Part shown: one piece after another, positions 11,345-16,601 of the stretch
Numbering within the stretch: the first letter of the stretch is position 1
Layout of the letters: every line of letters starts with the position of its first letter
Assembly (NCBI GenBank): GCA_036497565.1
Contig: DASXJE010000078.1
Span: 1-42,173, forward strand
Length of the DNA: 42,173 nucleotides
Reading direction: 5' to 3'
Source: Mycobacteriales bacterium
Lineage (GTDB): Bacteria; Actinomycetota; Actinomycetes; Mycobacteriales; QHCD01
The notes under the pieces: generated by a model
Told to the model about the DNA's origin: nothing
Seen by the model: only the letters and a program-made list of their open reading frames with translations
Database searches by the model: none
Translations under genes and position numbers: made by a program

Positions 11345-12433
11345 ATGCCCACGATCGCTGAGTCCAGTCCGGTACCGCAGACGTCGATGCGCGGGGTCTA
11401 CCTGCCCGGCGGGCGCACCGTCGACATCCGCGACGTACCCGTCCCGACACCCGGCCCCGGGCAGGTCGTCCTCTCGATCATGGCGTCGTCGATCTGCGGC
11501 AGCGACGTGCGCGCCATCTACCGCGACCACCTGGGCACCGGCGCCGAGGCCTACCAGGACGTCGTCGCCGGACACGAACCGTCCGGCGTCGTCGTCGAGG
11601 TGGGCCCGGAATGCCGACGGCTGCGGCCGGGCGACCGGGTCACCGTCTACCACATCTCCGGCTGCGGACAGTGTGCCGAATGTCAGCGCGGTTACCTGAT
11701 CGGCTGCACCTCACCGCTGCGCGCCTCCTACGGGTGGCAGCGCGACGGCGGCCATGCGCCGTACATGCTCGCCGACGAACCCACCTGCCTCCCGCTCCCC
11801 GACGAACTGTCCTTCGTCGACGGGGCGCTGGCGGCCTGCGGGTTCGGCACGGTGTTCGAGGCGCTGTCCCGGATCGGGGTCTCCGGACGCGACCGGTTGC
11901 TGGTGACCGGCCTGGGCCCGGTCGGGCTGGCCGCCGGGATGCTCGGACGTGCGCTGGGCGCATCGCAGGTGATCGGCGCCGAGGTCTCCGCGGGACGGCT
12001 TTCCTGGGCCCGCAAGCTCGACCTCTTCGATGAGGTGATCGACGTCGGCGACGGCGGTCTGGAGCAGGTCTTGGACGCGACCGGCGGAGAGGGCACCGAG
12101 GCGAGCATCGACTGCTCGGGATCGGGGCCCGGGCGACTGCTGGCGCTGGGCGCGCTGAAGACCTGGGGCCGGGCCAGCTTCGTCGGCGAAGGCGGCGACG
12201 TCACCATCGACGTCTCCGAGATGCTGCTGCACAAGCAGGTCACCCTCTACGGATCGTGGGTGACCTCGTTGCGGCACATGGAGGAGTTGACCGACTTCCT
12301 CGTCCGCACCGGGCTGCGGCCCGAGCGACTGGTGACCGATCGCTTCGGCCTGGAGGATGCCGCGGCGGCCTATGCGGCCGCGGACGGCCAGCAGACCGGA
12401 AAGGTGTGCATCCTCCCCCACGGCGACGAGTAA
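11345..12433 (+). CDS. Zinc-dependent medium-chain alcohol dehydrogenase
   Basis: 362 residues. Catalytic zinc ligands are C51 (SSICGSD) and H77/E78 (GHEPSG); the structural zinc loop has C107, C110, C113 and C121. The Rossmann motif TGLGPVGLAAG follows. This layout fits the sorbitol/threonine/(S,S)-butanediol dehydrogenase branch that oxidises secondary alcohols with NAD(P). The substrate is unknown. It lies 33 bp after the ligase gene on the same strand but is functionally unrelated to it. The region just downstream carries the palindromic repeats. Confidence 0.93.
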   Translation: MPTIAESSPVPQTSMRGVYLPGGRTVDIRDVPVPTPGPGQVVLSIMASSICGSDVRAIYRDHLGTGAEAYQDVVAGHEPSGVVVEVGPECRRLRPGDRVTVYHISGCGQCAECQRGYLIGCTSPLRASYGWQRDGGHAPYMLADEPTCLPLPDELSFVDGALAACGFGTVFEALSRIGVSGRDRLLVTGLGPVGLAAGMLGRALGASQVIGAEVSAGRLSWARKLDLFDEVIDVGDGGLEQVLDATGGEGTEASIDCSGSGPGRLLALGALKTWGRASFVGEGGDVTIDVSEMLLHKQVTLYGSWVTSLRHMEELTDFLVRTGLRPERLVTDRFGLEDAAAAYAAADGQQTGKVCILPHGDE

Positions 12434-12461
12434 GCCCGCCCAACTTCCGCGGCCCCAACTT

Positions 12462-12519
12462 CCATGATCGTGATCGGAAAAAGCCGCGAAACGCCGACGG
12501 AATCCGATCACAATCATGG
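12462..12519. repeat. 58-bp palindromic element, copy 1
   Basis: Outer arms CCATGATCGTGATCGGA (12462-12478) and TCCGATCACAATCATGG (12503-12519) pair over 17 positions with one mismatch, which becomes a G-U on the minus strand. The loop contains GCGAAACGCCG. Read on the minus strand it aligns without gaps with copy 2. Confidence 0.85.
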
Positions 12520-12536
12520 AAATCGGGGCGGCGCCG

Positions 12537-12594
12537 CCGTGATCAAGAGGGGATTCGTACGGCGTTTCGTGCCGAAATCCCCTCTTGATCATGG
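12537..12594. repeat. 58-bp palindromic element, copy 2
   Basis: Arms at 12537-12555 and 12576-12594 form a 19-position stem with a 16-bp perfect core (TGATCAAGAGGGGATT with its complement) and one G-U. It has the same length, ends (CC-TGATC ... GATCATGG) and loop core CGGCGTTTCG as copy 1 read on the minus strand, but a different mid-stem sequence. It lies 17 bp from copy 1 in the opposite orientation and ends 55 bp before the stop codon of the SsgA-like gene. Confidence 0.88.
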
Positions 12595-12649
12595 GCGAGG
12601 GGCGAGGGGGTGCGGGCGGCGGGATGAGAGGTGGGGCGGTCGCGGCGGG

Positions 12650-13057
12650 CTAGTCCGAGAGGACGTAGGTCAGCTCGAGGTCCCAGTCGATCGTCTCCTC
12701 GCCGTACGGGACGAGTTGCTCGCACTGGTTCAGGAACAACGCCAGGGCGTCGTGGTCGATCATGACCATCGTCCGGTCACCGGAATGCTCCAGCCGGAGC
12801 AGGATTCCGGGCCGGTCGGAGTCGGCGACGGAGCAGACCTGCACCGCACCCTCGCCGCCCTGCGACGTCAGGCCGTCGATGAGGCACCCACGGTCGACCA
12901 CCCATTGGGCCACCGAGCCGGCGGAGTGCAGCCGTAGCCGCACCGCGAACGGGTCTTCGACGTCGAAGAAGACTTCGAGGACCACCAAGGTCTCGTCGCC
13001 GACGGCAATGAGCTCGGCCGGCACACGCGCCCGCACCACTGTCCCGGGCAATGTCAT
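12650..13057 (-). CDS. SsgA-family sporulation/cell division regulator
   Basis: 135 residues across the SsgA-like (SALP) domain. The diagnostic central part DPFAVRLRLHSAGSVAQWVVDRGCLIDGL matches the family pattern in which an Arg/His-rich strand precedes a W-V-x-x-R-x-L-x-x-G-L helix. The C-terminal half (ALFLNQCEQLVPYGEE) is also typical. SALPs control septum placement and spore wall formation in sporulating Actinobacteria; SsgB recruits FtsZ. Which paralog this is cannot be told. The ATG has GGGAGG close upstream. Its presence suggests a lineage with complex division or spores. Confidence 0.85.
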   Translation of the reverse strand: MTLPGTVVRARVPAELIAVGDETLVVLEVFFDVEDPFAVRLRLHSAGSVAQWVVDRGCLIDGLTSQGGEGAVQVCSVADSDRPGILLRLEHSGDRTMVMIDHDALALFLNQCEQLVPYGEETIDWDLELTYVLSD

Positions 13058-13692: not shown

Positions 13693-13941
13693 ATGGCGGC
13701 CGTGGTGATCATCCGCTACTGGGCCGGCGCGCGTGCCGCGGCCGGCTGCGCCGAAGAGCGCATGGAGGTGGCGACGATCGGTGAGTTGGTGTCGGCGTTG
13801 ACCCCCCGCGACGGACTGGCGCGTGTGCTGGGGGCGAGCAGCCTGCTCATCGACGGAGCGACCGCACGGGTCGACGACGCCGGCCGCCGGTTGCCGGCCG
13901 GTTCCGTGGTCGACGTCCTGCCGCCGTTCGCGGGCGGATGA
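13693..13941 (+). CDS. MoaD/ThiS-family sulfur carrier
   Basis: 82 residues with the ubiquitin-like fold of MoaD: IIRYWAGARAAAG at the N-terminus, a hydrophobic middle and the essential C-terminal Gly-Gly (VVDVLPPFAGG) that becomes the thiocarboxylate. MoaD delivers sulfur to cyclic pyranopterin monophosphate inside molybdopterin synthase with MoaE. It faces moaE tail to tail with a 24-bp gap, so the two subunits come from separate transcripts. ThiS is less likely because of the RYWA-AR signature and the moa context. Confidence 0.88.
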   Translation: MAAVVIIRYWAGARAAAGCAEERMEVATIGELVSALTPRDGLARVLGASSLLIDGATARVDDAGRRLPAGSVVDVLPPFAGG

Positions 13942-13965
13942 GCGGCCGACCCGGTACGCCGCGGT

Positions 13966-14382
13966 TCAGGGGCAGTTGACCCATTCGTCGGATCCGTCGG
14001 TGAAGCGCTGCCGCTTCCACACCGGCAGCCGGTCCTTGACCAGGTCGACCAGGCGTTCGGCGGCGGCGAAGGCCTCGCCGCGGTGGGCCGCGGCGACGGC
14101 GGCGACGAGGGCGATGTCTCCGACCACGAGAGTTCCGACCCGGTGGCTCACCGACACGGCGTGCACCGCGGGATCGGCGGCGACCTCGTCGGCCACCGCT
14201 TGCAGCACGTCGGCCGCGCTCGGGTGGGCCACGTATTCGAGTTCGACGACCGACCGGCCGTGGTCGTGATCGCGGACCACGCCGCTGAAGACGACCGTCG
14301 CGCCGGAGCCCGGCCCGGCGACGGCCTTCGCGTGCAGATCGGGCGACAGCGGCGCCTCGGTGACCTCGACCGTCGCCGTCAC
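13966..14382 (-). CDS. moaE: Molybdopterin synthase catalytic subunit MoaE
   Basis: 138 residues. Family motifs include GATVVFSGVVRDHDHGRSV near the N-terminus, VSVSHRVGTLVVGD, and the catalytic lysine region VKDRLPVWKRQ near the C-terminus. MoaE with MoaD makes molybdopterin. The GTG start overlaps the mogA stop as GTGA, so it is the third gene of moaC-mogA-moaE and translationally coupled. Nothing is missing relative to the family. Confidence 0.93.
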   Translation of the reverse strand: MTATVEVTEAPLSPDLHAKAVAGPGSGATVVFSGVVRDHDHGRSVVELEYVAHPSAADVLQAVADEVAADPAVHAVSVSHRVGTLVVGDIALVAAVAAAHRGEAFAAAERLVDLVKDRLPVWKRQRFTDGSDEWVNCP

Positions 14383-14888
14383 GCGGCACCACCCGGATGG
14401 TCTCCGCCGGCGGCCTGGGCGAGGACGTGGCCGACCAGCGGAGCCAGGACGGCGAGCCCGTCGCGGACACCACCGGGCGAGCCCGGCAGGTTGACGACCA
14501 GCGCCCGGCCGGCCAGGCCGGCCAGCCCACGGCTGAGCACCGAGGTCGGCACCCGCTCCCGGGCGGACAGCCGCAGGGCCTCGGCGATGCCGGGGATCTC
14601 CCGGTCGAGCAGCGGCCGCGTCGCCTCCGGAGTGACGTCGGTCGGGGTCACCCCGGTGCCTCCCGTCGTCAGCACGAGCTGGGCGCCGCCGGACAACCCC
14701 GCCCGGATCGCCGCAGCGATCGCGGGCACGTCGTCCGGGACCACGACCGGTTCGTCGACCGCGAAGCCGAGGTCGGCGAGCCCGGCCGCGAGAATCCGGC
14801 CCGACTCGTCCGCCCGTTGACCCCGGGCACTGCGGTTGGAGCAGGTCACCACCACGGCCCTGCTGCCGTCCGGAACCCGCTCACTCAT
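14379..14888 (-). CDS. mogA: Molybdopterin adenylyltransferase (MogA/MoaB family)
   Basis: 169 residues of the MoCF-binding fold: AVVVTCSNRSARGQRADESG at the N-terminus, VLTTGGTGVTPTDVTPEAT as the MPT-binding loop, and VVNLPGSPGGVRDGL at the C-terminus. The protein adenylylates molybdopterin before molybdate insertion by MoeA-type enzymes. The ATG at 14888, with a GGGGGCG ribosome site, overlaps the moaC end by 8 bp. In Actinobacteria the same family is often called MoaB; the two cannot be separated from sequence alone here. Confidence 0.9.
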   Translation of the reverse strand: MSERVPDGSRAVVVTCSNRSARGQRADESGRILAAGLADLGFAVDEPVVVPDDVPAIAAAIRAGLSGGAQLVLTTGGTGVTPTDVTPEATRPLLDREIPGIAEALRLSARERVPTSVLSRGLAGLAGRALVVNLPGSPGGVRDGLAVLAPLVGHVLAQAAGGDHPGGAA

Positions 14889-15372
14889 CGCTCGCCCCCG
14901 TCGTACGCCGGTAGTCACCGGACCGCCCGCCGGTCTTCGTCTCCACCCGGACATCGGTGAGGACGGCCCCCCGGTCGACCGACTTCACCATGTCGATCAG
15001 CGCCAGACCGGCAACCGCGACGGCGGTGAGAGCCTCCATCTCGACACCGGTGCGGTCGGCGGTGCGGGTGCGCGCGGTGATGCGGACGCCTCGGTCGACC
15101 AGGTCGAGGTCCACCTCGATGCCGTGCAAGGCGATGGGGTGGCACAACGGCACGAGATCCGGGGTGCGCTTCGCGCCCATGATGCCGGCGATCCGGGCGA
15201 CGCCGAGCGCGTCACCCTTGGGTACGCCGTCACCCCGGAGGAGGTCGACGACGTGCGGGGACACAACGAGCAGCCCGCTCGCCGACGCCTCCCGGACGGT
15301 CACCTGCTTGTCCGCGACGTCGACCATCCGCGCGGCACCACTGTCGTCGACGTGCGTCAGGCGGTCGGGCAT
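14881..15372 (-). CDS. moaC: Cyclic pyranopterin monophosphate synthase MoaC
   Basis: 163 residues. Family landmarks are the N-terminal THVDDSGAARMVDVADK, the active-site motif LVPLCHPIAL, GVEMEALTAVAVAGL and the catalytic DMVKSVDRG. MoaC completes the first step of molybdenum cofactor synthesis begun by MoaA, which is not in this window. It leads the moaC-mogA-moaE operon. No ribosome site precedes the ATG; TAGGCT lies 7 nt upstream, which predicts a leaderless transcript. It is divergent from the membrane peptide/PRC-barrel operon. Confidence 0.95.
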   Translation of the reverse strand: MPDRLTHVDDSGAARMVDVADKQVTVREASASGLLVVSPHVVDLLRGDGVPKGDALGVARIAGIMGAKRTPDLVPLCHPIALHGIEVDLDLVDRGVRITARTRTADRTGVEMEALTAVAVAGLALIDMVKSVDRGAVLTDVRVETKTGGRSGDYRRTTGASDE

Positions 15373-16170: not shown

Positions 16171-16601
16171 TGCGGTTCAAGGAAGCGAAGAACCACAAGG
16201 TGGTCAGTACGACGGACGCCGCCACGGTGGCCAAGGTCCGCGCCTTCGTCGTCGATCCGCGGACGGCCTCCGTCGTCGGCCTGCGGTTGAAAAAGGCGCC
16301 GGGCCCGGGCGATGTCATCGCGTGGTCGGACCTGAAAGCGTTCGGCCGCGACGCCGCCACCATCGAATCGGCGGAGGCGATCCGGATCGCCGACGGCGAT
16401 CTCGCCGCGCTCGCCGAGTCCGACCGCGACCTGATGGGCAAGCGCGTTCTCACCGAAGGCGGCGACGGACTCGGCACGGTGAACGACGTGGAGTTCGATC
16501 CGGCCGACGGATCGATCCGGGCGATCCTGACCGGCACCGAGGAGATCGCCGGGCCACGGATGCTCGGCCTGGGCAGCTACGCCGTCGTGGTACGCGCCTG
16601 A
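16170..16601 (+). CDS. Tandem PRC-barrel protein (second)
   Basis: 143 residues, again two PRC-barrel-like units: about 3-70 (FKEAKNHKVVSTTDAATVAKVRAFVVD ... VVGLRLKKAPG) and about 83-143 (LMGKRVLTEGGDGLGTVNDVEFD ... GLGSYAVVVRA). It resembles the upstream protein enough to suggest duplication, but lacks the C-terminal helix. The ATG starts on the last base of the previous stop (TGATG), so translation is coupled. It ends 9 bp from the convergent YbjQ-like gene. Confidence 0.83.
   Translation: MRFKEAKNHKVVSTTDAATVAKVRAFVVDPRTASVVGLRLKKAPGPGDVIAWSDLKAFGRDAATIESAEAIRIADGDLAALAESDRDLMGKRVLTEGGDGLGTVNDVEFDPADGSIRAILTGTEEIAGPRMLGLGSYAVVVRA

Follow-up and report, generated by a model that had tools for sequence, protein, structure and literature searches.

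Viewed across the draft genome, the two palindromes that lie at positions 12462 to 12594 of the window (the whole stretch of DNA analysed here, 42,173 nucleotides of a Mycobacteriales genome, contig DASXJE010000078.1) are two members of a family with 73 dispersed copies, as a sequence-only reading of the window had suspected in calling them dispersed and REP-like. The explanation that we favour, with somewhat better than even confidence, is that they are REP-like, non-autonomous palindromes which an enzyme copies and which persist at gene ends, probably as hairpins that form bidirectional transcript 3' ends lacking a U-tract. Their architecture is REP-like and works like a REP system, yet the features of REP membership that were tested fail. 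The strangest features of the family are a near-constant core set between unrelated arms, the flipping of this core, and the strictly mixed composition of its close pairs.

Both palindromes of the window were confirmed where the sequence-only reading had placed them, each being exactly 58 nt long and the two being separated by 17 nt (Table 1). Their opposite orientation holds as well, since the core CGAAACGCCG is read on the forward strand in copy 1 and on the reverse strand in copy 2 (a search of the genome with the core pattern returned copy 2 at C78:12556-12569, reverse strand). Each stem comprises 17 bp with one mismatch, and 4 of the 17 base pairs (columns 9, 10, 13 and 14) differ between the copies, all of them paired, so that the stems do differ with pairing kept. 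The ends are shared overall as described, but not in detail: copy 1 ends in AATCATGG and not in GATCATGG, and copy 2 starts with CCGTGATC. When folded as a single strand, either element is 6.8 to 7.6 standard deviations better than its dinucleotide shuffles (z -6.8 to -7.6), with none of 200 shuffles equalling it. The suggestion that the tandem pair folds as one larger structure did not hold, as the 171-nt strand is predicted to form two separate hairpins. A search of Rfam with eight loci gave nothing over the gathering score, the only matches, two to MIR1120 (L034), lying below it. An alcohol dehydrogenase gene on one side and an SsgA-like gene on the other converge on the pair; the SsgA-like one, to which the sequence-only reading had drawn attention, is real as a gene but incidental as a neighbour, no Pfam family having more than four members among 125 proteins neighbouring the copies. 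Further along the window (13693-15372), a run of small genes resembles a molybdenum-cofactor group by eye.

Table 1. Features of the window around the pair of palindromes
Feature	Positions	Strand	Remark
Zinc-type alcohol dehydrogenase gene	11345..12433	+	stop 28 nt before copy 1
C-rich outer flank of the pair	12440..12461	no strand	C-rich inward flanks found around copies generally
Class A palindrome (copy 1)	12462..12519	+ (core strand)	58 bp
Copy 1 core CGAAACGCCG	12487..12496	+	core columns near-invariant within class A
Class B palindrome (copy 2)	12537..12594	- (core strand)	58 bp
Copy 2 core CGAAACGCCG	12560..12569	-	core columns near-invariant within class B
G-rich outer flank of the pair	12595..12625	no strand	same inward-flank C-richness as other copies
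SsgA-like gene	12650..13057	-	stop 55 nt from copy 2; convergent

The count of copies rests on a covariance model built from 25 of them, whose 145 matches in the genome correspond to 73 places, most of these being matched on both strands; one weak match at C300 was dropped. A plain pattern, CCATGATC-N20-48-GATCATGG, finds 25 places, and its reversed control none. All 73 copies were inspected together with their flanks, and their near-identical arms assign 33 of them to class A and 40 to class B. Within these classes (33 A and 34 B copies of 58 nt were compared, one odd B copy and five copies of other lengths being excluded) the stem is near-invariant save for its outermost three pairs, the columns of the inner stem and core scarcely vary, and the differences that do occur are one-sided in 47 cells and both-sided in 10. 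In a test covering the class B arm word, its exact form GATCAAGAGGGG was found at 76 sites, all of them inside elements when the list of sites is set against the list of elements, and sites outside elements with one mismatch stay at the control level. The exact class A pattern was matched once in other species, by eye within a coding sequence of Nocardia, in a search from which the own genome was possibly omitted.

The asymmetric core, CGA(A/C)ACGCCG, extends beyond these two classes. A hairpin scan of the baseline stretches defined below met a first palindrome that is neither A nor B, with the core GACACGCCG, and two further arm classes, C and D, occur in the same genome with nearly the same core, CGA(A/C)ACGCCGTACG. 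Elements of classes C and D are each exactly 74 bp long between the same landmarks, their arms are themselves palindromic, and the two classes again differ by matched stem changes; 20 copies were read, in 20 stretches chosen for carrying the core, and the genome total is thus at least 20. The close pair of different types seen in the window proved to be the rule: all 12 pairs of adjacent copies (less than 200 bp apart) are heterotypic, six joining A to B and six joining C to D (L289, L295, L299, L300, L302 and L304). Under random assignment of classes, six A-B pairs out of six would be expected with a chance of about 0.015, and by our own arithmetic the figure for the C-D pairs is similar. Gaps of 14 to 60 nt separate the partners and, since both the gaps and the core orientations vary among pairs, the pairs were probably not copied as units.

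From the differing but paired stems, the sequence-only reading had concluded that structure is under selection, and had looked to covariation among relatives for support. This conclusion is weakly borne out, given that the inner stem is near-invariant within each class and that orthologues show no more compensation than shuffles do. Covariation is strong in an alignment of 25 rows (A1, comprising 23 exact-end genome copies and the two window copies, with two identical repeats not entered), but it amounts to the difference between classes A and B, in rows picked for perfect ends. A class-wide alignment (A2) draws mostly on matches to patterns in which ends and core are preset, and for that reason its conserved columns carry no weight as evidence. 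Among 13 aligned orthologues of one element, at site e1, compensation was not above shuffles; these are 13 of 28 rows, three in which the element is present (L188, L192 and L194) being omitted and the other 12 lacking it. The differing stems therefore mainly reflect distinct copied classes, and the differences look like differences between whole classes, copied as units.

Orthologous sites in one genus point in the same direction, for there an entire palindrome may be retained, exchanged for one with different arms, lost, or altered by inversion of its core. At site e1 a palindrome occupies 16 of 28 rows, being kept in close relatives and absent from others. At site e2 the arms are kept while G378 and L189 have the forward core and 11 others the reversed one; 5 further rows carry the arms and neither core orientation by the pattern used. 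Arms thus change mainly by replacement of the whole palindrome, which weakens any inference of structural selection from stems that differ. As a separate observation, a 6.4-kb gene block in G378 (L175, G378:C40:28400-39000) is flanked by two elements in the same orientation. At the corresponding sites, relatives show a different kind of arm (GATCAAGAGGTTTGCGTC), yet another kind, a truncated remnant, or no hairpin at all. The block is missing from L222 and L225, whose junction carries a single palindrome. Some relatives have a different gene at this place, and the site looks like a spot of gene turnover.

Genes around the copies were called with a purpose-made, simple codon-usage caller, so their boundaries are approximate. 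By these calls, 25 of the 73 copies lie in convergent gaps, 30 in same-direction gaps and 12 in divergent gaps, 4 overlap a called gene and 2 lie at contig ends; reading into the element, a stop codon is met within 60 nt in 56 of the 73. Convergent gaps hold 25 of the 67 classified copies, or 20 of 61 distinct gaps, against 10.3% of intergenic bases, and the enrichment by distinct gap has a p of 1.8e-6 against the share of bases and of 9e-4 against the share of gene pairs. The baseline for this comparison is 271 kb in 20 stretches, 14 taken by contig number and 6 hand-picked from large contigs, with the window included; of its 26036 intergenic bases 2692 fall in convergent gaps, and 40 of its 251 gene pairs are convergent. 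Of the 30 copies in same-direction gaps, 28 are closer to the upstream stop, at a median of 25 nt; the core points along transcription in 13 of the 30 and opposes it in the other 17. The element itself provides the stop codon in 10 cases; the divergent gaps place 12 of the 67 classified copies away from gene ends. A similar picture emerges from G378, where 22 of the 35 copies counted were read for context: 11 are convergent, 7 same-direction, 2 divergent and 2 inside called genes. Judged by this placement, a role of the hairpins at gene ends appears likely.

No U-tract follows the hairpins, the 15 nt after each of 58 ends containing 12% T and 53% G. The inward 20-nt flanks are C-rich and G-poor, with 51% C in convergent gaps, 52-57% in same-direction gaps, 58% in divergent gaps and 66% in G378, and the stretch from stop codon to hairpin has 58% C and 18% G, against about 37% C and 31% G at other gene ends. 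A Rho site was considered for this flank and rejected, because divergent gaps and the start side are C-rich too; being found also around divergent copies, the C-rich flanks are no signal of transcription, and are a property of the site or of the element. Facing flanks pair slightly above cross-shuffles in their first 10 nt only (0.464 versus 0.412, 1/2000). Selection at the RNA level, sought as an asymmetry of G-U type, was likewise rejected: in same-direction gaps, one-sided changes gave GT 5 versus AC 3 where the core runs with the transcript and GT 4 versus AC 3 where it runs against it, and in the absence of a transcript-strand bias no such selection is seen.

In proteobacteria, dispersed palindromes are well documented, and a RAYT is credited with moving part of them. 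The RAYT-type transposase that the sequence-only reading had suggested looking for was not found in the draft genome, which is 97.8% complete and gave no match to Y1_Tnp (PF01797) at E up to 0.1, the control being positive in 8 of 14 genomes. Likewise, no transposase appears among the 25 commonest of 215 Pfam families in the 125 neighbouring proteins, and none of 72 copies has identical 2- to 9-mers directly on both sides (chance would give 1.8 for 2-mers), so the target-site duplication of a MITE of a DDE transposon is lacking. Viral contigs yielded 52 pattern matches, none of which is a palindrome, and no match to the class C and B patterns; plasmids and phages gave no match. Among the entries listed, searches of the literature found no description of this palindrome family, and two matches to sequence strings that were inspected are primers. 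Integron attC sites are also imperfect palindromes, of 57 bp and more, that follow a gene, and they form a clustered array in one orientation relative to genes, whereas the copies described here are dispersed over many contigs, in both orientations and often between convergent genes. An intrinsic terminator shares the hairpin soon after the stop but not the missing U-tract.

With the REP, BIME and REPIN elements of the GTAG and CGTC super-families, the present elements share the many extragenic copies and the close mixed pairs. The available part of PMC3733652 describes REP families as palindromes of 20-40 bp with stems of 5-13 bp, occurring in close pairs of which mixed ones are preferred in many families, and that of PMC6006769 describes pairs of Y and Z2 REPs in E. 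coli. In contrast, the elements here are 58 bp long with a 17-bp stem (A and B) or 74 bp long (C and D), are actinobacterial, come with no Y1/RAYT gene that could be found, and conserve the core between the arms instead of an end tag; in the 8 nt flanking the 73 copies, GTAG occurs 0 times on the left and 4 on the right, and CGTC 3 times on the left and 0 on the right. Another likeness is to the U-less (I-shaped) or bidirectional transcript ends of actinobacteria, which the available portion of PMC8269248 documents in Streptomyces clavuligerus: there, too, a strong hairpin follows soon after the stop without a U-tract, often between convergent genes. Those, however, are individual hairpins, whereas here one sequence with a fixed core recurs at 73 loci. 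Inverted DNA uptake sequences of Neisseria and Pasteurellaceae, treated as terminators and gene-end hairpins in the accessible text of PMC1852404, also use a repeated sequence as a gene-end hairpin; since no exact copy of the class B arm word turned up outside the elements, that word is no free-standing uptake word. What is available of PMC5217627 concerns other pairs of gene-end motifs.

Relatives of the palindromes occur across the class, with genus-specific arms and often the same core. The covariance model matches 18 of 61 genomes including the own one, most clearly G020, G001 and G010, many of the others being weak, and the pattern of ends plus core matches 25 of 296 genomes of the class, again including the own one (reversed control 0); judged by eye, several of these matches resemble coding sequence. 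A loop-free pattern, TGATCATG-N28-54-CATGATCA, is found in 70 of 296 genomes, with at least five copies in 35, and its reversed control gives single matches in 4; single matches are mostly chance: of 19 genomes checked, 11 have a copy in which 5 or more of the 8 interior pairs are present, and 8 have none. This pattern misses the arms of the window itself, so the kinship rests on the TGATC ends that all share and, for some of the matches, on the core. One arm type occurs in 30 of 41 genomes of a Micromonospora-like genus (a presumed name), its copy number ranging from 0 to 35. The loop is mostly GACACGCCG in G378; in G366 (L134) and G375 (L133) the same arms enclose at least three other recurrent motifs (GATCTCC, GACAAAACGGAC and GGGTAAGCGCTTACCC), and hence the core is not universal. 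The nearest relative carries two near-identical palindromes, CCGAGATCGCGGTTCACC with the core GCGACACGCCG, 2.2 kb apart (L113, G001:C19:14075-14134 and 16288-16347).

Under the favoured reading, a putative trans-acting enzyme would copy the element after recognising its core, possibly in a single-stranded DNA hairpin. The arms may diverge between lineages for as long as they stay palindromic, giving rise to classes and to genus-specific arms, and copies would survive where the hairpin is harmless or useful, that is, at gene ends; there it probably serves as a U-less 3' end for transcripts from either direction. Same-class neighbours were probably lost by recombination or slippage, or barred by insertion immunity, leaving only heterotypic pairs. 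Gene conversion, for its part, seeds no new loci, and this weighs on the strongest competitor, a rather doubtful one, in which bidirectional terminators under hairpin selection became repetitive through recombination and gene conversion and not through mobility. Such terminators would fit the location at gene ends, the convergent enrichment and the hairpins kept at orthologous sites, as well as the U-less 3' ends known in a GC-rich actinobacterium from the available part of PMC8269248; yet hairpin selection leaves unexplained why 73 loci with no relation to each other share almost the same sequence and why one core persists between unrelated arms, and both the missing U-tract and the lack of within-locus covariation above shuffles speak against it. 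It is unlikely, too, that the elements are binding sites for a nucleoid protein, topoisomerase or recombinase acting at the asymmetric core, with this function driving their spread. The conservation of the core across four arm classes and its presence in other families agree with that proposal, as do the free orientation and the 6.4-kb block of G378 between same-orientation copies, replaced by one palindrome in L222 and L225; plain homologous recombination or deletion could account for the block equally well, and a binding function would not be essential, given that one arm type ranges from 0 to 35 copies within a genus.

Two further alternatives are improbable. True REP elements whose RAYT has either been lost or is not captured in the draft would account for many extragenic palindromes in mixed pairs, like the REP dimers of the available text of PMC3733652, and a genome that is 97.8% complete could be missing the gene; the ends without a GTAG or CGTC tag, the length of 58-74 bp instead of 20-40 bp, and the lack of a Y1 match next to a control positive in 8 of 14 genomes argue otherwise. 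To a similarly small degree, the matched stems might result from mutation alone, through template switching that corrects one arm of a quasi-palindrome to the other. Both the 10 both-sided cells within classes and the inversion of the core between orthologues are in keeping with this process, but the 47 one-sided cells imply that it is not dominant, and it leaves the copies unexplained.

Returning to enzyme-copied palindromes, a broader proposal can be put forward only tentatively, as we hold it to be less probable than not: a class-wide actinobacterial system of mobile palindromes, with a core-recognising enzyme, exchangeable lineage-specific arms, sister classes about four stem pairs apart, immunity to or selective loss of identical neighbours, and cores that flip. 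The elements are an apparently independent and widespread actinobacterial counterpart of the proteobacterial palindromes, for which a RAYT was not found, the core is near-constant and the arms are free. Since the pairing rule holds for two unrelated pairs of classes within a single genome, the question of why REP pairs are mixed becomes directly testable and, if the hairpins end transcripts, they constitute a large natural set of bidirectional gene-end parts for GC-rich bacteria. Finally, G378 contains another family of dispersed hairpins, with (AG)ATCTTGGACA(G/C)TTTCCGT arms and short loops, at L277:962-1008, L277:2019-2069, L286:15183-15237 and L287:157-207.
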